Positions 8,432-19,130 of a DNA stretch of 64,000 bases are shown here, in pieces. Made by a program: the position numbers and the translations under genes. Origin of the DNA: Acidobacteriota bacterium (GTDB taxonomy: Bacteria; Acidobacteriota; Thermoanaerobaculia; Multivoradales; JAGPDF01); the NCBI GenBank assembly GCA_014584695.1, contig JACTMI010000028.1, positions 1-64,000 of the forward strand, read 5' to 3'. Each line of letters starts with the position of its first letter. Position 1 is the first letter of the stretch. Under the pieces are notes generated by a model. That model worked only from the letters and a program-made list of their open reading frames with translations, was not told the DNA's origin and searched no databases.

Positions 8432-9028
8432 TCAGCGCGGCGTTTCGCGAATGAACAGCGCTTCGCCGTCTTCCGTGAGGGTGAGGAGGAGAATGCGCCC
8501 AGGTGCGAGGTCGATCGGGGTGTCGAGGTGGAGCGCGGGGAGCGCGGCGTAGGCGGAGAGGAGGTCCGGGGGGGAGTCCGGGGGTGGGGGGGCGGGGGCG
8601 AAGTGGAGCTCGAGGTGGCGCCGGCCGGCGGGGGTGGGGAGGGTGGCTTCGACGGCCAGCGGGCGGGTGCGACGCAGGCCGCTGGGGGAGACCGTGCGGG
8701 CGAGGCGCTCGGTGCCGTCGAGCTTCACGGTGAGGTGATAGTCGAGCGCGGTCTCGGTGCAGATCCTCGGGCTGCGCATGTGGATCGGCAGCGCTTCGAG
8801 CTCCCGCGCGGACGGCTCGCGGCAGACCTCCAGACGTGCGTGCGTGGTGCGGAGCGCCAAGCGGAGGGCGGCGTCTCGGGGCGGCTCGCCGAGCGGGACG
8901 CGGGCGACCAGCGCGGTGCCGGCGACCAGCGCCAGCGAGACGACGGCGCGTAGCGCCAGCGTGGCGGCGCTCGGTCGCGCCTCCGGCGCCGGCCGTGGCG
9001 GATTCGGAGCCGCGAGGCGCTCAGCCAC
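8432..9028 (-). CDS. Membrane-anchored hypothetical protein, last gene of oxidase operon
   Basis: A 198-residue protein starting with a GTG that overlaps the end of the cytochrome b-ferredoxin fusion by 8 bases, so it is translationally coupled to the respiratory operon. It has one membrane segment at about residues 25-45 (ALRAVVSLALVAGTALVARV) and a periplasmic domain of about 150 residues with three Cys, but no CXXCH or copper motif. The domain has no family I recognise. Position suggests an assembly or accessory factor for the oxidase complex. This is inference from context only. Confidence 0.7.
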   Translation of the reverse strand: MAERLAAPNPPRPAPEARPSAATLALRAVVSLALVAGTALVARVPLGEPPRDAALRLALRTTHARLEVCREPSARELEALPIHMRSPRICTETALDYHLTVKLDGTERLARTVSPSGLRRTRPLAVEATLPTPAGRRHLELHFAPAPPPPDSPPDLLSAYAALPALHLDTPIDLAPGRILLLTLTEDGEALFIRETPR

Positions 9029-10625
9029 GACCCGCTCCCACCGCGACGGGAGTCGCCGCCGTCGTCGTCGCGCACTCGATCTCCGGCTCCGCGGCGTCGA
9101 CCGGCGGCGGGGCGAGCGCGGTGACGCGGGCGGCGAGCTCGGCGATCGCGCGCGCGGCGGCGGCCGACTCCGAGGCCGAGAACGAGGCGAAGGCGATCCG
9201 GCGGCGGTCCACCCGCTCCGGAAGCTCCGCCTCGCGGCCGTCGAAGAGCCGGGCCGCGAGCCACTTCGGGCCCTCTCTGAAGCGGCAGTCGCGCGGCGGG
9301 CAGGTCAGGAGCAGCACGCCGCCCAGCCCCTGTCGCAACGCCAGCTCCACTCCCGCGGTGTGGATGCTGCCCGCGCACGGCACCGTCTCCACCAGCACCC
9401 CCGGCCGCTCGAACGCCGAGCGCTCGCGGACGACGCCGTTGCGGCAGCCGAGCACCAGGATCTCCCGGCCGGTGAGCGCGGCGCCGGCCAGCCGTGCTCT
9501 GAGCGCCGCCAGCTGCTCCCGCCCGGTCCAGTCCGTCGGGCCCACCCCCATCGGCGCGCAGGCCGCCGCGCAGATGCCGCAGCCGACGCAGCGCGCCGGG
9601 TCCACCCAGGCGACCGTCGCCGAGCGGGCGAGGCCGGCCGTGCGCGGCACCATCGTGATCGCCTCGTAGGGGCAGTCTCGCGCGCACGACTCGCAGCCCG
9701 TGCAGCGGTCCTGGTCGACCGACGAAACGCGGATCGGCGCGCGCGACCGCCAGATCCAGGCGAGCGCGGTCAGGCCGCCGAAGAGCGCCAGCCAGAAGAG
9801 CGCCTGCGCCGCCGGCCCGACGCGCCGCGCCAGCGGCAGCCAGAAGGCGTAGAGCAGGTCGGTCGGCACCTCGCCGGGGAGCGCCAGCAGGTCCGCCGCC
9901 GGGCCGATCCCCGCCGGCACCAGGATCGCCGCGAGAGCGAGCGCCGCGAGCGCCCAGCGCCGCACCGGCGGCGGCGGCAACCAGACCGGCCGCGCCACCC
10001 GCGAGACGTGCAGCCAGAGCAGCGCCGCCAGGCCGAGCGGGATCGCCACGTGGAGAAAGAGATTCATGAAGAAGAACGACGACGGCACCGGCTGCGCGCC
10101 GTCGAAAGCGCGCGCCAGCGGCTGCGACATCACCGGCAGCAGATCGATCAGCCGGGTGCCGCGCGCCGCGATCTCGAGCCCCTGCGTGTCCCAGACCATG
10201 ACCAGGCCGGTCCAGCCGCAGGCGAGCAGCGTGCCGAGCAGCACCACGCCGCTCACCCAGGCGAGGACGCGCGGGCCCCAGGTGTGGCCGGCGAGCAGCT
10301 TGCGGACCAGGTGGACCGCCGCCGCGACGATCGCGAGATCCGCGCTCAGCCGGTGCAGCGAGCGGACCCAGGCGCCGAGGAAGATCTCGCGCTCGATGCG
10401 CAGCACCGACTCGTAGGGCTCGGCGATCCGGTAGAAGAGGAAGAGGTAGAGCCCGGTCGCGATCGAGACCAGCAGACAGAGGACCGCGAGGTTGCCGCTC
10501 TGGTGGAGCGGATTCCAGCGCGAGCCGTAGATCCGGTCGAACAGGCGCTCGAGCGGCGCCACCGCGCGCTCGAGCCAGCGCGCCGCCGGCGGCGGGGCGG
10601 CCGGGCCGCCCCGCGCCGAAGTCAT
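9021..10625 (-). CDS. Cytochrome b-ferredoxin-FlpD-like fusion protein
   Basis: A 534-residue three-part protein. Residues about 45-215 are a cytochrome b N-terminal domain with four heme ligands as two H-x13-H pairs (His91/His105 and His192/His206). Further membrane helices lie at about 223-290. Residues 305-360 hold two [4Fe-4S] motifs, CTGCESCARDCP (Cys308-318) and CVGCGICAAAC (Cys346-356). The C-terminal part (about 388-460) resembles FlpD/MvhD, with VLGCRNG, VPCAGS and TCPPRDCRFREG (Cys394, 417, 442, 447). It probably passes electrons between a quinone or cytochrome and iron-sulfur carriers on the membrane. It overlaps the SCO gene by ATGA and the next gene by 8 bases. The arrangement is unusual. 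Confidence 0.85.
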   Translation of the reverse strand: MTSARGGPAAPPPAARWLERAVAPLERLFDRIYGSRWNPLHQSGNLAVLCLLVSIATGLYLFLFYRIAEPYESVLRIEREIFLGAWVRSLHRLSADLAIVAAAVHLVRKLLAGHTWGPRVLAWVSGVVLLGTLLACGWTGLVMVWDTQGLEIAARGTRLIDLLPVMSQPLARAFDGAQPVPSSFFFMNLFLHVAIPLGLAALLWLHVSRVARPVWLPPPPVRRWALAALALAAILVPAGIGPAADLLALPGEVPTDLLYAFWLPLARRVGPAAQALFWLALFGGLTALAWIWRSRAPIRVSSVDQDRCTGCESCARDCPYEAITMVPRTAGLARSATVAWVDPARCVGCGICAAACAPMGVGPTDWTGREQLAALRARLAGAALTGREILVLGCRNGVVRERSAFERPGVLVETVPCAGSIHTAGVELALRQGLGGVLLLTCPPRDCRFREGPKWLAARLFDGREAELPERVDRRRIAFASFSASESAAAARAIAELAARVTALAPPPVDAAEPEIECATTTAATPVAVGAGRG

Positions 10626-11566
10626 GCCCGCTCCCGTTCCAGCCGCGCGACCGCGCCCACCAGCCAGCTCGCCGGCGGGTTGAGAAAGCGGAACGCGATC
10701 CGCCCTTCGCCGTCGAGCACGAAGACCAGGCCGGGGTGAGTGATCTCGCCCGTGGCCTCGTCGCGGACGGCGCCGAGCCCGTAGGCCTCGTGCACCGCCA
10801 GCACCTCCTCGACCGCGCCCGAGAGGAGCCGCGCTCCGGGCACCGCGGCGACACCCCAGGCCTGGGCCAGCGTCGGCAGCGACGAAGGGGTGTCGCGCCA
10901 GGGATCCAGGGTGACGAAGAGCGCGGTGGCGCGCGGACCGGCGCGCTCGCCGGCGAGGCGCACCGAGCGAACCAGACCCGGACAGACCGTGGCGCAGTGG
11001 GCGTAGGCGAAGGTGACGATCGCCGGCTTGCCCGCGAGCGCCGCGGGCTCGAGCCGCGCGCCGTGCTGGTCGACGAGCGGGATCGCCGGCGCCGGATCGA
11101 ACGAGCGGGGATAGGCCGCGGGCAACGGCTCGCCCTCCGCCGCCGAGAGCGCCACCGGCCCCGCCGACAGGCGCGCGATCTCCGCCCGCCGCTCGATCAG
11201 CCAGGCGCCGGCCAGGAGCGGCGGTAGCGCCACCGCGCCGAGCAGCACCGCCCCCGCCGCGGTGCCCGAGAGGCGGCGGCTCCAAGCCGCGAGATCGCGC
11301 CCCCAGACCGCGACCAGGAAGACCAGAATCGACAGCGGGCTCGCCACCAGCAGCATCCAGCCCCAGGTGTCGGGGAGGCCGCCCGGGGGTGAGCCGAAGC
11401 AGACCGCGCGGGCGCGGTCGAGCCACTCCGGCGGCGCCGGCAGGGGAGCGAGCGCCATCCCCCACCAGGCCGCCGTGGCGGCGAGCCAGCCGAGGAAGCC
11501 GAAGGCCGCGAAGCGCGAAGGGCTCCTCGAGACCGGCGGCGGCGAGGTAGGGGCGAGCGCGAGCAT
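10622..11566 (-). CDS. SCO1/SenC-family copper chaperone with membrane N-terminus
   Basis: A 314-residue protein. Residues 18-125 contain three predicted membrane helices. The C-terminal thioredoxin-fold SCO domain (about 155-314) has the copper site Cys191-x3-Cys195 (HCATVCPG) and His277 (ITHPGLVFVLD). SCO proteins deliver copper to the CuA centre of oxidase subunit II, which is encoded two genes upstream and has intact CuA ligands. The gene lies 15 bases after subunit I and overlaps the cytochrome b fusion by ATGA. The multi-helix N-terminus is longer than the single anchor of classic SCO1. Confidence 0.88.
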   Translation of the reverse strand: MLALAPTSPPPVSRSPSRFAAFGFLGWLAATAAWWGMALAPLPAPPEWLDRARAVCFGSPPGGLPDTWGWMLLVASPLSILVFLVAVWGRDLAAWSRRLSGTAAGAVLLGAVALPPLLAGAWLIERRAEIARLSAGPVALSAAEGEPLPAAYPRSFDPAPAIPLVDQHGARLEPAALAGKPAIVTFAYAHCATVCPGLVRSVRLAGERAGPRATALFVTLDPWRDTPSSLPTLAQAWGVAAVPGARLLSGAVEEVLAVHEAYGLGAVRDEATGEITHPGLVFVLDGEGRIAFRFLNPPASWLVGAVARLERERA

Positions 11567-11581
11567 GGTGGATCCTCCCTC

Positions 11582-13366
11582 TCAGCCCATCTTCCAGAGC
11601 ATCGACAGCACCTTCCAGTTGGTGAAGTAGTAGAGGATGAAGACCGCCAGGAAGACGAACACCAGGATGACGGTGCCGGGGGCGCCGGCGCGATGGGCGG
11701 CGGCCGAGGCGTCGACGTCGTGCAGTTGCGGCGGCAGCCGGACGATCCCCTGCGGCACGCCGGGCTCGCCGGGCTGCAGGCGCTCGAGCGCCACCGTGTC
11801 GCCGAAGAAGACCGACTTGACCGCGATCGCGATGTAGAGCAGGACGGCGATCGCGGCGAGGGTGCCGCCGATGCCGATCCCCGCCATCAGCAGGTCGACC
11901 ACCGGCGGCAGCTCGAGCGTGAAGGGCGCGTTGGGGAAGGTGATGTCGGCGTGGCGGCGGGGCACGCCAAAGCTGCCGGCGAAGGTCATGCTGACCGACA
12001 TCAGGGCGATGCCGGCGCCGAACAGCCACGGCTGCCAGCGCGCCGCCCGCCAGAAGGCGACCCGGCGCTTGAAGACGAGCGGCAGCAGGTAGTAGGTGAG
12101 CGCCATGAACGCGAGCGCCGTGCCGCCGACCACCGTGACGTGGAAGTGCCCCGGCACGCGCAGCGTGTTGTGGGCGATCAGATTGATCTGCTCGGTGCCC
12201 TGGGTGACGCCGGTGATGCCGCCCATGAAGCCGAAGATCACCAACGACAGGAAAGTGCCGGAGAAGCCCGGGTCCGACCAGGGGGCCCGGCGCAGCCAGT
12301 CGAAAGCGCCGCGCGTGAAGCCGCGCAGTCGCATCCCCATCTCCATCCCCGCCGGCACGGTGAAGCCGTGGATCATCGAGGCGAGCACCGCGAGATACAT
12401 CGCGTAGCTGGTGTTCCAGACCTTCCAAGCCGGGCCCATGCCCGGGTCGACCAGCAGGTGGTGGGCCGAGGCCATCGAGATGAACAGCACGTAGAGGACG
12501 AAGGCCCAGCGGCTGACCTTCTGGTTGACCACCACCGCGCCGATCGTCAGCGCGCCCATCAGGTACCAGACCGAGACCATTGCCGCGACGTTGATCTGCT
12601 GCGAGGAGTGGCCGAGCGCCCAGAACATCAGCCGGTAGACCTGCGGGTCGATCTCCATCATCCCCATCGACCAGAGGAAGGCGGGGATGTAGATCGCCGC
12701 GCCGTGCAGCAGCGTGATCACCGCGATGATCGCGGCGGTCAGCGCGCCGAACGTGACCAGCGGCACCGAGCCCTCGTAGCTCCTCTCCCGCTTGGCGACC
12801 ACCAGCGAGGCGAAGAAGAGGCCGACCGCGATCAGCGCCCCGACCGCGAACAGGATGATCCCCAGGTAGTAGAGGGGATGGGCGCGCAGCGGCACGTAGG
12901 AGGTGAACAGCACGTCGGCCCGCCCCCACAGCACCACGAAGTCGACCAGCAGGGCGCCGGCGAGCATCAGGGCGAAGCCGGTCCAGGCCGTCTTGGGCGC
13001 CGGCTGCCGGGCGTTGAGCAGGATCGGTCCGGCGAAGTAGAGGATCGCCATCTCGAAGAAGATGATGAAGAAGATCAGCATGTTGAGCCCGTGCAGGGTC
13101 AAGATGCGGTAGTACCAGACCGGATCGAGCAGGTGCACCGCCTGCCAGCGGGTGAGCGCCAGCAGCAGCGCCGCCACCGCGCCGACCAGGAAGAAGACCA
13201 CGCCGGCGACCGCGTTCCAACGCACCAGCCGCTCGGAGTCGCGGTTGACCACCAGGCCGGTGACCGGGCAGACGCGGGCGAGCGCGCGCCAGAGGAAGTT
13301 GCCATCGCCACCGGCTTGGTTGCCCGGCGCCGCGGCGCCGGGGAGAGCTTCGCTGACGGTGCTCAT
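11582..13366 (-). CDS. Heme-copper oxidase subunit I, eNOR-like (active-site Tyr replaced by Gln)
   Basis: A 594-residue polytopic protein with about 13 membrane helices. Heme and copper ligands are visible: His92 (LHGLNML), His253 (LGHSSQQ), His302/His303 (AHHLLVDP), and His407/His409 (VPGHFHV). Overall it resembles B-type (ba3-like) subunits. In O2 reductases of A and B type the motif after the copper His is HPEVY, with Tyr cross-linked to His. Here the same position is Gln257 (HSSQQ). As I recall, Tyr-to-Gln replacement is a hallmark of the proposed eNOR family, whose Rhodothermus marinus member reduces NO. An unusual O2 reductase cannot be excluded. The start overlaps subunit II by ATGA. 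Confidence 0.88.
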   Translation of the reverse strand: MSTVSEALPGAAAPGNQAGGDGNFLWRALARVCPVTGLVVNRDSERLVRWNAVAGVVFFLVGAVAALLLALTRWQAVHLLDPVWYYRILTLHGLNMLIFFIIFFEMAILYFAGPILLNARQPAPKTAWTGFALMLAGALLVDFVVLWGRADVLFTSYVPLRAHPLYYLGIILFAVGALIAVGLFFASLVVAKRERSYEGSVPLVTFGALTAAIIAVITLLHGAAIYIPAFLWSMGMMEIDPQVYRLMFWALGHSSQQINVAAMVSVWYLMGALTIGAVVVNQKVSRWAFVLYVLFISMASAHHLLVDPGMGPAWKVWNTSYAMYLAVLASMIHGFTVPAGMEMGMRLRGFTRGAFDWLRRAPWSDPGFSGTFLSLVIFGFMGGITGVTQGTEQINLIAHNTLRVPGHFHVTVVGGTALAFMALTYYLLPLVFKRRVAFWRAARWQPWLFGAGIALMSVSMTFAGSFGVPRRHADITFPNAPFTLELPPVVDLLMAGIGIGGTLAAIAVLLYIAIAVKSVFFGDTVALERLQPGEPGVPQGIVRLPPQLHDVDASAAAHRAGAPGTVILVFVFLAVFILYYFTNWKVLSMLWKMG

Positions 13367-13980
13367 GGTGCCTCCTCGGTGGCGAACTGGACGCGCGGAG
13401 CCGCGGGCGCGAGCGCGGCGCTCTTGGCCGCCGGCTCGACCAGGATCCGTCCCAGCATCTGGTGATGGCCGATGCCGCAGAATTCGTTGCAGATGATCCG
13501 GTACTCGCCGGGCTGGTTCGGGGTGATGCGCAGCCCGTAGTCGTAGCCGGGGATGACCTGGATGTTGAGGTTGGCCGGGTAGAGGCCGAAGCCGTGGTTG
13601 ACGTCGAGCGCCGAGAGGTGGAGGGTGTAGGTCGCCCCCTCCTGCAGCACCAGCGCCGGATACCAGCGCCACATCTGGCCGAGCATGTAGACATCGGCGC
13701 CGGGCGGCGGCGCCACCAGCGGCATGCCGTTCTCCTCGCCGATCTTGTAGTCCTCGACGAAGCGGAAGGTGCGCGAGAGGAAGTCGGCGGGCGCGACCTT
13801 GGTGCGGATGCCGGAGGGGTTCTGACCGCCCTTCAGGTGCCAGAAGGGCATCATCGCGAACAGCACCAGGCACCAGCAGAAAGCGATCGCGATCCAGAGC
13901 CGCTCCTGACGGCCGGCCGGCTGCCACCAGTTGCCGCGCGGCGCCACGAGTCCGGAACCGAGCTGCGAGCCCGCGCTCAC
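13363..13980 (-). CDS. Heme-copper oxidase subunit II with CuA
   Basis: A 205-residue protein. One membrane helix lies at about residues 28-46 (LWIAIAFCWCLVLFAMMPF). A cupredoxin domain (about 90-185) carries a complete CuA site: His129 (DVNHGFG), Cys164, Cys168, His172 and Met175 (CNEFCGIGHHQM). Subunit II takes electrons from cytochrome c or another periplasmic donor and passes them to subunit I. It starts at a GTG overlapping the small subunit's stop codon by four bases, and its end overlaps the subunit I start. Confidence 0.93.
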   Translation of the reverse strand: MSAGSQLGSGLVAPRGNWWQPAGRQERLWIAIAFCWCLVLFAMMPFWHLKGGQNPSGIRTKVAPADFLSRTFRFVEDYKIGEENGMPLVAPPPGADVYMLGQMWRWYPALVLQEGATYTLHLSALDVNHGFGLYPANLNIQVIPGYDYGLRITPNQPGEYRIICNEFCGIGHHQMLGRILVEPAAKSAALAPAAPRVQFATEEAP

Positions 13981-14144
13981 GGCAGCGTCCCCGCCGGCAG
14001 CAGGGCGATCTCGAGCAGCCCCCAGCCGGTGTAGAAGAGGAGCATCACCAGCAGCCCCGCCGCCAGGAGGAGGAAGGGCCGGTCGAACAGCCGCTGTCCG
14101 AGCGGCGGCGGGGTCTCGTCGGTCGTCGCGCGATCCGGGGGCAT
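13977..14144 (-). CDS. Small single-helix oxidase subunit (subunit IIa-like)
   Basis: A 55-residue protein too short for most gene callers. It has one membrane helix (PFLLLAAGLLVMLLFYTGWG) after a short Pro-rich head. A strong GAAGGAGGG ribosome-binding site precedes the ATG. Its position at the head of the operon and its size fit the IIa/CbaD-type subunit that accompanies ba3-like oxidases. It overlaps the subunit II start. Confidence 0.75.
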   Translation of the reverse strand: MPPDRATTDETPPPLGQRLFDRPFLLLAAGLLVMLLFYTGWGLLEIALLPAGTLP

Positions 14145-16095: not shown

Positions 16096-16629
16096 CTACC
16101 GGCGCGACCGTTCGATCAACCCGCGCACCTGCGCCAGATGGTGGCGACCGTGCCAGGCGTACATCGCGACGCTCTCGTCGAGCCGCCAGAGCTTGCCGGT
16201 GTCGCCGTGGACGAAGCGCCGTGGCCAGGAGTCCTCGCGCAGCGCGCGCAGGAACGCCACCCACCGCGCGTGCACGGCCTCGAGCAGCGCGAGCGGCGCC
16301 GAGACCTCACCGACCAACACGTCGGGCGTCGCCGCCCACGCCTTCTCGTCGTAGCCGCGCACCGTCGGCTGCTCCTCCGTCACCGTCAAGCGGTGCCGGA
16401 CGTAGGCGTTCAGATGGCTGTCCGGAACGTGGTGAACCACCTGCCGGACCGTCCACCCACCATCCCGGTAAGGCGTGTCGAGCTGCGCAGCCGTCAGCCG
16501 AGCCACCACCCCCCGAAAGTCGCCGGGCAACCGCTCGAGCTCGCCCAGGAGCTCCTCCCGCAGCCCGCGCGAGATCGCCGCCACCGCCTCGAAGCGGCCG
16601 ATGGGATACCGCAGATCCAGATCGCTCAT
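16096..16629 (-). CDS. DinB/YfiT-family putative metal-dependent hydrolase or thiol transferase
   Basis: A 177-residue protein. The ATG at 16629 is used; a GTG six bases upstream is possible. It is a four-helix DinB_2-type protein with the metal-binding His residues in WTVRQVVHHVPDSH and YAWHGRHHLAQV, the YfiT/BstA pattern. Family members transfer low-molecular-weight thiols (for example bacillithiol) or have unknown hydrolase activity. No thiol cofactor pathway is visible here. The composite repeat begins about 75 bases upstream of its start. Confidence 0.87.
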   Translation of the reverse strand: MSDLDLRYPIGRFEAVAAISRGLREELLGELERLPGDFRGVVARLTAAQLDTPYRDGGWTVRQVVHHVPDSHLNAYVRHRLTVTEEQPTVRGYDEKAWAATPDVLVGEVSAPLALLEAVHARWVAFLRALREDSWPRRFVHGDTGKLWRLDESVAMYAWHGRHHLAQVRGLIERSRR

Positions 16630-16703
16630 GCCCACATTTCTATCGCACCCCCGCTCCCACCGGCACGCCGCTCATCTCGAGCAAGAGACGCCTCCGAGCC
16701 AAG

Positions 16704-16738
16704 AGCGAAGAGCGAAGAGCGAAAAGCGAAAAGCGAAA
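16704..16738 (+). repeat. Heptamer array, 5 units (composite repeat copy 1)
   Basis: Five tandem 7-bp units: AGCGAAG twice, then AGCGAAA three times. They lead directly into AGCTCCAATTAA and the conserved segment of composite repeat copy 1. The second copy, at 18613, has 15 units, so unit number varies like a microsatellite. Confidence 0.92.
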
Positions 16739-17340
16739 AGCTCCAATTAAGCGGGTAGTGGGCGGGGCGGGGGAGGCGAGGGCCTGGCGGCGGTGGTGTG
16801 CGGCGCGTTGGTTGGGAGCAGGTTCCTGGCCAGCCTCGCAGATCCAGCGGGTGCCGAGGACTCGCCACGGGTTGGACACCACCCACCCCCTTCAACAGAA
16901 CGCTTTTCAACACCGCTCCGCCCGCACCGGCCGATGAGGACCCGCCACCGGCGGAACACCACCCACCCCCTTCAACAGAACGCTTTTCAGCACCGCTCTG
17001 CCCGCACCGGCCGATGAGGACTCGCCACCGGCGGACCCCCCCCACCCCCTTCAACAGAAAGCCTTTCAACAGCGCCCCGCCCACACCGGCCGGTGAGGAC
17101 TCGCCACCGGCGGAGCACCGCCCACCCCCTTCAACAGAACGCTTTTCAACAACGCCCCGTCCGCACCGGCCGATGAGGACCCGCCACCGGCGGAGCACCG
17201 TCCACCCCCTTCAACAGAAAGCTTTTCAGCACCGCTCTACTCGCACCGGCCGGTGAGGACTCGCCACCGGCGAAACACCACCCACCCCCTTCAACAGAAT
17301 CCTCCTCAACAGCGTTCGGTCCGCATCGACGGGTGCGGCC
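16739..17340 (+). repeat. Composite repeat copy 1: conserved segment plus six 80-bp tandem repeats
   Basis: The first roughly 150 bases are about 95% identical to 18717-18868. They are followed by six tandem units in which TTCAACAG recurs at 16891, 16971, 17050, 17130, 17210 and 17290 (spacing 80, 79, 80, 80, 80). Each unit contains two near-copies of TTCAACAGNNCGCT, a GC-rich segment, and the small palindrome CCGCC-ACC-GGCGG. The period is not a multiple of three, so frames shift and coding is unlikely. It fills the gap between the nucleotidyltransferase 3' end and the DinB gene start. Confidence 0.92.
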
Positions 17341-17393
17341 TCGCCTCGGCTGCGCGAGTGGCCACCGCTGTCGGCCGCTAACGGGTGGAAAGG

Positions 17394-18221
17394 TCAGCTG
17401 GAGCCTGATGAGGGGCGGACGGTCGGAAAAGCGCCGCGGAGGGAGCCGGCGTGGAAGCGGAGGTTGCCGGCACGAAGGTCATCAGTGAGCTGGGCGCGTG
17501 CTCCCCGGTAGAGCTGGAATTGGGCGTCGAGGACGCACTTGCCGACCTCCGGGGCGGGGAGCCGATGGACGATCTCCCGTGCCTCCGAAAGGCGGAGCCG
17601 CCAGTGGCGGGAAAGCTCGCCGGCATCCGGCGCGCCGCCTTCGAAGTCGAGCGTGTCGACCTCCGCTTGCGAGTAGTGACTGGTGCGCGCGGCGTGTTCC
17701 AGGATCGACGCCGGAGAGAAACCGGGGTCCTTGCCAGCGGCCGCCCAGGCGAGGTAGCCGAGCGGTTGAACTCGTTCGTCGAGGGTCATGGAGTCGATCC
17801 AGTCTCGAACCTCGAGCCGGCCGACCAGGGCGAGCACCTTGTTGGTCGCGAGATCGAACGGGTGGAGCGTCAACCCGAACAGGTCGTGCTCGACCAGAGG
17901 AAAGAAACGGAAGGCGCTGTCGCTGGACCAGTCGATGCGCAGGCGGTTCTCGCCTCGCCGCACCTCGGCGGTGACGAATCCGCGCGTCTCGCGCAAGGTC
18001 TCCACCGAACAGCCGGCTTCGGTCAGGGTCCGGCGATCGGCCTCGAAGCTCTCGGCGACCGCCTCGCGCGCGTCGTGGAACAGGTCGAGGTCGCGGGACC
18101 GGCGCGACGCCGCCAGGATCTCGTTGAGAGCGGCCCCGCCGGCGACGTAGCTCTCGCCACTCGCCTTCCGCCTCGCCGCTAGGAGGCGGCAGGCGTCGCG
18201 TTGGAAAGGGTCGAGAGCCAT
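17394..18221 (-). CDS. AbiEii/AbiGii-like nucleotidyltransferase (toxin-like)
   Basis: A 275-residue protein. The ATG at 18221 starts the family's N-terminus. The nucleotidyltransferase signature GGAAL...SRDLDLFHD (about residues 28-47) has the two metal-binding Asp residues. A further segment, FDLATNKVLALVGRLEVRDW (about 130-150), matches the AbiEii domain pattern of Lys and Arg-Asp. AbiEii proteins act as type IV or related toxins, or as tRNA nucleotidyltransferases. Here the gene overlaps by 43 bases a small upstream gene that could be its antitoxin. The two-gene module is flanked by the two direct composite repeats. Confidence 0.82.
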   Translation of the reverse strand: MALDPFQRDACRLLAARRKASGESYVAGGAALNEILAASRRSRDLDLFHDAREAVAESFEADRRTLTEAGCSVETLRETRGFVTAEVRRGENRLRIDWSSDSAFRFFPLVEHDLFGLTLHPFDLATNKVLALVGRLEVRDWIDSMTLDERVQPLGYLAWAAAGKDPGFSPASILEHAARTSHYSQAEVDTLDFEGGAPDAGELSRHWRLRLSEAREIVHRLPAPEVGKCVLDAQFQLYRGARAQLTDDLRAGNLRFHAGSLRGAFPTVRPSSGSS

Positions 18222-18430
18222 CGTCTGAGCTCCGCGGCGCGCAGGAAGGCGGCCCGGTCGCCGTGCTTCTCGATCGCGTCGAGCGCCATCCGCGCGGTCT
18301 CGAAATCCACCGGCAAGAAGTCCTCGCGCATGTACCAGAGACACAGCGCTCGCTGCTCCTCGACGAAGCGTGCCAGCTCCTCGCGCAGCGGGTCGGGAAG
18401 CGATTCGACAGCGTGGCTCGGCGCAGACAT
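18179..18430 (-). CDS. Small protein paired with nucleotidyltransferase (antitoxin candidate)
   Basis: An 83-residue, helical, acidic/basic mixed protein (LARFVEEQRALCLWYMRED, then FETARMALDAIEKHGDRAAF) with no membrane segment. Its 3' end overlaps the nucleotidyltransferase gene by 43 bases, so the two are translationally coupled, with the small gene first. This is the usual order for antitoxin-toxin pairs. No DNA-binding motif is recognised. The assignment as antitoxin is inference from context. Confidence 0.65.
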   Translation of the reverse strand: MSAPSHAVESLPDPLREELARFVEEQRALCLWYMREDFLPVDFETARMALDAIEKHGDRAAFLRAAELRRWLSTLSNATPAAS

Positions 18431-18612
18431 GAGCAGAAGGTCCCGAGGAGGTCCCTCGTATGCTACCCCAGCCCGCCCGGCACTTCGTCACCGCATTCTC
18501 CCCGCCCTCCACGTGCGCGCGCGAGCGCAACGACGGGTCTCCGCTTCCGGCGAGAGCCGGAGAACGAACCGCCAACCATCAGTCGCCTGGAGCAAGGAGC
18601 GGGAGGCCATGT

Positions 18613-18717
18613 GCGAAAAGCGAAAAGCGAAAAGCGAAAAGCGAGAAGCGAGAAGCGAAAAGCGAAAAGCGAAAAGCGAAAAGCGAAAAGCGAAAAGCGA
18701 AAAGCGAAAAGCGAAAA
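18613..18717 (+). repeat. Heptamer array, 15 units (composite repeat copy 2)
   Basis: Fifteen tandem copies of GCGAAAA, with two variant GCGAGAA units in positions 5 and 6. The array runs directly into GCTCCAATTAA at 18718 exactly as in copy 1. On the plus strand it can be read as a Lys/Arg/Ser-rich peptide, and on the minus strand as a Phe/Ser/Leu-rich peptide. Both readings are products of the repeat and not evidence of a gene. Confidence 0.95.
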
Positions 18718-19130
18718 GCTCCAATTAAGGGGGTAGTGGGCGGAGCGGGGGAGGCGAGGGCCTGGCGGCGGTGGTGTGCGGCGCGCTGGTTTGGAGCAGG
18801 TTCCTGGCCAGCCTCGCAGATCCAGCAGGTGCCGAGGACTCGCCCCGGGCTGGACACCACCCACCCCCTTCAACAGAGCGCTTTTCAACAGCGCTCCGCC
18901 CGCACCGTCCGATGAGGACTCGCTACCGCCGGAACACTACCCACCCCCTTCAACAGAACGCCTTTCAACAGCGCTCCGCCCGCACCGGCTGGTGAGGACC
19001 CGCCACCGGCGGAGCACCGCCCACCCCTTTCAACAGAACGCCTTTCAACAGCGCTCCGCCCGCACCGGCCGATGAGGACTCGCCACCGGCGGAACCCCGC
19101 CCACCCCCTTCAACAGAGCGTTTTTCCAGA
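18718..19130 (+). repeat. Composite repeat copy 2: conserved segment plus four 80-bp tandem repeats
   Basis: Same orientation and order as copy 1. After the conserved segment (GCTCCAATTAA through GGACACCACCC), TTCAACAG recurs at 18869, 18949, 19029 and 19109, exactly 80 bases apart. About ten substitutions over the first 200 bases separate the two copies. The array stops abruptly after the fourth TTCAACAG and loses similarity near 19120-19130. It fills the gap between the AlgX-like gene's 3' end and the small antitoxin-like gene's start. Confidence 0.92.

Follow-up and report, generated by a model that had tools for sequence, protein, structure and literature searches.

When an open reading frame matches cytochrome oxidase but lacks the tyrosine of the oxygen-reducing site, does it encode an enzyme of oxygen respiration or one that reduces nitric oxide (NO)? 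This question is raised by the window analysed here, a stretch of 64,000 nucleotides that makes up positions 1 to 64,000 of contig JACTMI010000028.1 in an Acidobacteriota genome (GCA_014584695.1). O2 reductases need the active-site tyrosine for splitting the O-O bond, and the step carried out by NO reductases produces the greenhouse gas N2O. The original prediction, made from the letters of the window, had placed a heme-copper subunit I at 11582-13366 and named it a candidate eNOR-like NO reductase. Sequence, tree and genome context all speak for the eNOR reading, and we consider it likely that the locus encodes an eNOR-family NO reductase with a dedicated electron-supplying partner module. 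The enzyme itself is a member of an already published family. The result added here is a co-inherited module composed of a cytochrome b-FeS-FlpD protein and a protein termed orf198, of which no mention was found in the eNOR literature searched, the main characterization paper lying outside the scope of that search.

The coordinates of subunit I were right, and the gene, for which no strand had been given, runs on the minus strand from 13366 to 11582; a plus-strand frame over the same interval is antisense and was rejected. The operon reads, in its order on the minus strand:

13977-14144, minus strand: tm55, a 55-residue membrane protein with a single predicted helix (residues 25-43), the first gene of the operon
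13363-13980, minus strand: subunit II, a cupredoxin with a complete CuA site and a GTG start (COX2/CoxB matches)
11582-13366, minus strand: heme-copper subunit I, putatively of eNOR type, 594 residues, with Gln257 (PF00115, 222 bits)
10622-11566, minus strand: SCO-type copper chaperone with N-terminal membrane helices and a CxxxC motif (Pfam SCO1-SenC, 1.5e-18)
9021-10625, minus strand: fusion of a diheme cytochrome b, two [4Fe-4S] sites and FlpD (Pfam Cytochrome_B, Fer4 and FlpD)
8432-9028, minus strand: orf198, one helix and a periplasmic beta-sandwich, with a Cys69 / His83-Met84-Arg85 / Cys90 motif

Start and stop codons overlap between tm55 and subunit II, subunits II and I, SCO and cytochrome b, and cytochrome b and orf198, so that the operon reads as one transcription unit. 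The SCO chaperone and the cytochrome b fusion had both been anticipated, as had an intact CuA subunit II. Indeed, all CuA ligands of subunit II are present (His129, Cys164, Glu166, Cys168, His172 and Met175) and are kept in 84/84 relatives, the Glu in 83/84. Among the 50 full-context eNOR loci, defined by flanks of 5 kb or more to either side, a tm55 homologue adjoins eNOR in 48 and a SCO homologue is present in 45; tm55 itself has no Pfam or NCBIfam match. Elsewhere in the window, at about 16600-19100, repeats encode KRKAKSEK-like runs in several frames and are likely a non-coding repeat region.

The predicted heme and CuB histidines are all in place: His92 and His409 for the low-spin heme, His253 and His302/303 for CuB, and His407 as the proximal heme ligand. 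Across 84 aligned relatives of the Gln clade they are invariant, the exceptions being Lys409 in one plasmid copy from Thermus and a single row that is truncated. In the motif GHSSQQIN, Gln257 stands four residues after the CuB ligand His253, at the position where O2 reductases carry the cross-linked Tyr. The Gln is found in 84/84 aligned relatives and in 6/6 further Acidobacteriota homologues (90/90, two of the six being identical to rows already among the 84). Judged from these alignments, such conservation rules out chance. An eNOR is expected to have one conserved proton channel. At four positions of the candidate channel, Ser330, His333 and Tyr268 are likewise invariant and the remaining residue is Val264; we take these residues to be the equivalents of S309, T312, Y248 and Y244 of ba3, respectively. 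In the literature, eNOR is recognized by a Gln at the Tyr position (PMC8756737), and it has been characterized biochemically as an NO reductase (PMC8756737, PMC11388526, PMC8879329).

Eighty relatives, at 51-83% identity, are spread over Thermoanaerobaculia, Gemmatimonadota, Bdellovibrionota, Rokubacteria, Myxococcota, Spirochaetota, Pseudomonadota and others, and the named Gln-type references are those of Defluviimonas, Thermomicrobium roseum and Thermus thermophilus plasmids. A subunit I phylogeny had been proposed as a check of the prediction. In this tree the Gln enzymes cluster together (SH-aLRT 99), apart from three Tyr-bearing B-type enzymes, and the present subunit I falls with the Gln-type enzymes of Thermus, Thermomicrobium and Defluviimonas; the tree was built by a quick method, has several long reference branches, carries no claim on the deeper order and does not contain the characterized Rhodothermus marinus enzyme under its name. 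The R. marinus enzyme is reportedly the eNOR tested by Murali et al. in 2024, and an earlier paper on the family is said to be that of Hemp and Gennis from 2008. One of the plasmid copies, a Gln-type enzyme on T. thermophilus plasmid pHB5018d (locus L108, 11989-13671), has Lys in place of the low-spin heme His of GHFH (GHFK), which could be a ligand change or the mark of a decaying copy.

We strongly infer that NO is the substrate of the Gln-type enzyme, and the genomic surroundings of its relatives support this. NirS or NirK occurs in 28/37 eNOR-carrying genomes (E up to 1e-60 for NirS and up to 1e-30 for NirK). The eNOR gene is present in 7/297 Acidobacteriota genomes; 6/7 of these carriers have an NO-forming nitrite reductase vs 7/290 non-carriers (p 1.3e-8), or 5/7 vs 6/290 when NirK or NirS must pass its cut-off (p 5e-7), figures whose weight is lowered by shared ancestry, a partial confounder. 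The signal survives shared ancestry because most eNOR carriers belong to different families. One relative, from the class to which the present genome belongs, has nirS immediately upstream of eNOR subunits II and I. Furthermore, Rrf2 regulators are encoded at 27 eNOR loci, most within 0.9 kb, and nearly all have the pattern C-x6-C-x5-C, which the Thermus copy lacks.

The genome to which the window belongs encodes a second NOR-like enzyme (contig C26:45360-46631), which has Asn at the Tyr position (GHTIVN), is sNOR-like and could already handle NO. A CuA subunit II and SCO go with it, and RIC, a protein of iron-sulfur repair, is encoded nearby together with an NnrS protein and a nitrate reductase resembling NasC. 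A NirK-like protein scores 171 bits against a curated cut-off of 296; its gene (C27:17291-18235; locus L101, 4253-6055, minus strand) is followed by one for an azurin-like cupredoxin, and the two make a plausible donor pair. A weak Cytochrom_D1 match in this genome was rejected as NirS, and the search for NosZ returned only the CuA domains of three subunit II proteins. The NirK-like protein, the two NOR-type enzymes and the lack of NosZ would together make this genome a potential source of N2O. A formate dehydrogenase-like molybdoenzyme at C18:98133-99410 contains one in-frame TGA, possibly for selenocysteine.

A divergent short heme-copper homologue (409-461 residues) adjoins eNOR in five loci and also lies close to the Asn-type enzyme of this genome:

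L130, 3966-5351: short heme-copper homologue beside eNOR, found also in loci L009, L011, L014 and L018
L086, 3721-4950, minus strand: short heme-copper homologue near the Asn-type enzyme, itself at 9223-11253, minus strand, of the same locus

In this protein, which is almost invisible to Pfam, the heme histidines and a GGGH..Q-like motif are retained and the CuB His-His pair is absent. It is possibly a CuB-less, NO-linked heme protein.

The cytochrome b-FeS-FlpD gene is linked to eNOR in 46/50 loci, in several arrangements: same-strand downstream, divergent upstream and convergent downstream. Among the 297 Acidobacteriota genomes it is found in the seven that carry eNOR (p 2e-13) and, beyond these, gives one weak match, of 27% identity and with an interrupted frame. 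Among plasmids, the sole near-full-length match to the fusion is on the Defluviimonas eNOR plasmid. No such module lies near the Gln-type enzymes of Thermus and Thermomicrobium; it thus marks a subgroup and is not required by all eNORs. The predicted structure (AlphaFold pLDDT 90.5) matches the cytochrome b of bc1 and b6f in Foldseek searches. In 73 sequences the four heme-b histidines are invariant and the eight Fe-S cysteines nearly so. The position equivalent to PEWY, residue 256, placed by eye from the family pattern, is Asp in 66/73 and Asn in 7/73, and the operon contains no Rieske gene. In the FlpD part Cys394, Cys417, Cys442 and Cys447 are kept, and the second Cys is missing from what we take as the canonical FlpD CxxC. 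In 14 loci orf198 and the cytochrome b protein are fused, and in 44/58 others orf198 lies immediately downstream, so that a single complex of the two is very probable. The predicted structure of orf198 (pLDDT 92.6) found no convincing PDB match (best E 0.004, low TM), and we therefore claim no function for it. As to FlpD in connection with NO reductase or denitrification, the literature search returned a single paper, PMC8756737, which mentions FlpD in a different connection.

Is the enzyme, then, an oxygen reductase after all? Among solved structures, that of the ba3 O2 reductase from Thermus is nearest to it (E 5e-44). Pfam and NCBIfam name it only as cytochrome oxidase, as had been foreseen, with a score far under every NCBIfam cut-off, and public plasmid records label its relatives cbb3-type or ba3-type oxidases. 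A B-type enzyme that has lost the tyrosine cross-link might still reduce O2, inefficiently or by way of another residue. However, the Gln is invariant throughout the clade, the gene is associated with nirS/nirK and Rrf2 regulators, and oxygen is covered in this genome by separate A-type and cbb3 oxidases. We judge O2 reduction very unlikely because of the Gln and the placement in the tree. If NO is the substrate, eNOR could still serve mainly as a defence against NO, and not in respiration. The Rrf2 regulators, which are NsrR/IscR-like, fit such a module, as do the Thermus copy, which adjoins DUF542 (RIC) and Rrf2, the location of this genome's second NOR-like enzyme next to RIC and NnrS, and the missing NosZ. 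Yet so many eNOR genomes hold an NO-forming nitrite reductase, and a CuA-fed, multi-subunit enzyme with its own electron module so suggests respiration, that we find a mainly detoxifying function rather doubtful. The two roles are compatible and inseparable on present evidence.

For the cytochrome b complex, the main rival to electron supply is a role in assembly, in which the module would reduce copper or thiols during cofactor insertion. A precedent is offered by CcoG, a [4Fe-4S] membrane protein that takes part in the assembly of cbb3 oxidase; the module adjoins the SCO chaperone, and orf198 has a conserved Cys pair. This pair, however, is lost in three loci, and the invariant heme ligands and cytochrome b fold of the fusion point to transmembrane electron transfer, which leaves an assembly reductase unlikely. 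From co-inheritance and anatomy we infer, with moderate confidence, that the module supplies electrons and that they flow towards eNOR.

In the mechanism that we favour, an eNOR with its electron-supplying partner, subunit I would convert 2 NO to N2O at a site formed by a high-spin heme and CuB, served by a low-spin heme and having Gln257 instead of the tyrosine. Subunit II would take up the electrons at its CuA centre. Most likely they would be fed in by a dedicated partner complex, made up of the cytochrome b-[4Fe-4S]2-FlpD protein and orf198, which would draw either on the quinol pool or on a reductant from the cytoplasm that docks at the FlpD domain, and would pass electrons via the two b hemes to the periplasmic side and on to eNOR. 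It is possible, and we propose it tentatively, that a large, multi-phylum subgroup of eNORs operates in complex with a transmembrane electron module of its own. If so, NO reduction would be wired directly to quinol or to low-potential carriers of the cytoplasm and not only to soluble cytochrome c, and eNOR with its module would represent a new kind of NO-respiratory supercomplex. Enzymes of this type are called cytochrome oxidase by the annotation libraries used and are easily missed. The co-inherited cytochrome b module can serve as a specific marker, and it yields a hypothesis, open to testing, on how eNORs receive their electrons.

Compared with known systems, the locus is closest to the eNOR family, also called ba3-a1. 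It shares with this family the Gln at the Tyr position, a B-type-like subunit I, the adjoining CuA subunit II and the misannotation as cytochrome oxidase, and differs in its Thermoanaerobaculia-like Acidobacteriota host and, as far as the eNOR literature searched goes, in the co-inherited cytochrome b-FeS-FlpD/orf198 module. The ba3-type O2 reductases of the B family have the same overall fold and ligands and provide the best PDB match, whereas the present enzyme carries Gln257 where a B-type O2 reductase is recognized by the cross-linked Tyr at CuB His+4, and sits on a separate branch. With the Asn-type sNOR/bNOR it has in common that both are heme-copper NO reductases, putatively so here, with a CuA subunit II; the Asn, however, belongs to the paralogue on C26. 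The partner protein resembles cytochrome b6 and the cytochrome b of bc1 in its fold and four heme ligands, and the C-terminus of HdrA2 and MvhD in its Fer4 and FlpD domains. In contrast to all of these, it unites every domain in one protein and lacks one Cys of the FlpD CxxC, and, in contrast to bc1 and b6f, an Asp/Asn region replaces the PEWY-type Qo motif in an operon without a Rieske protein.
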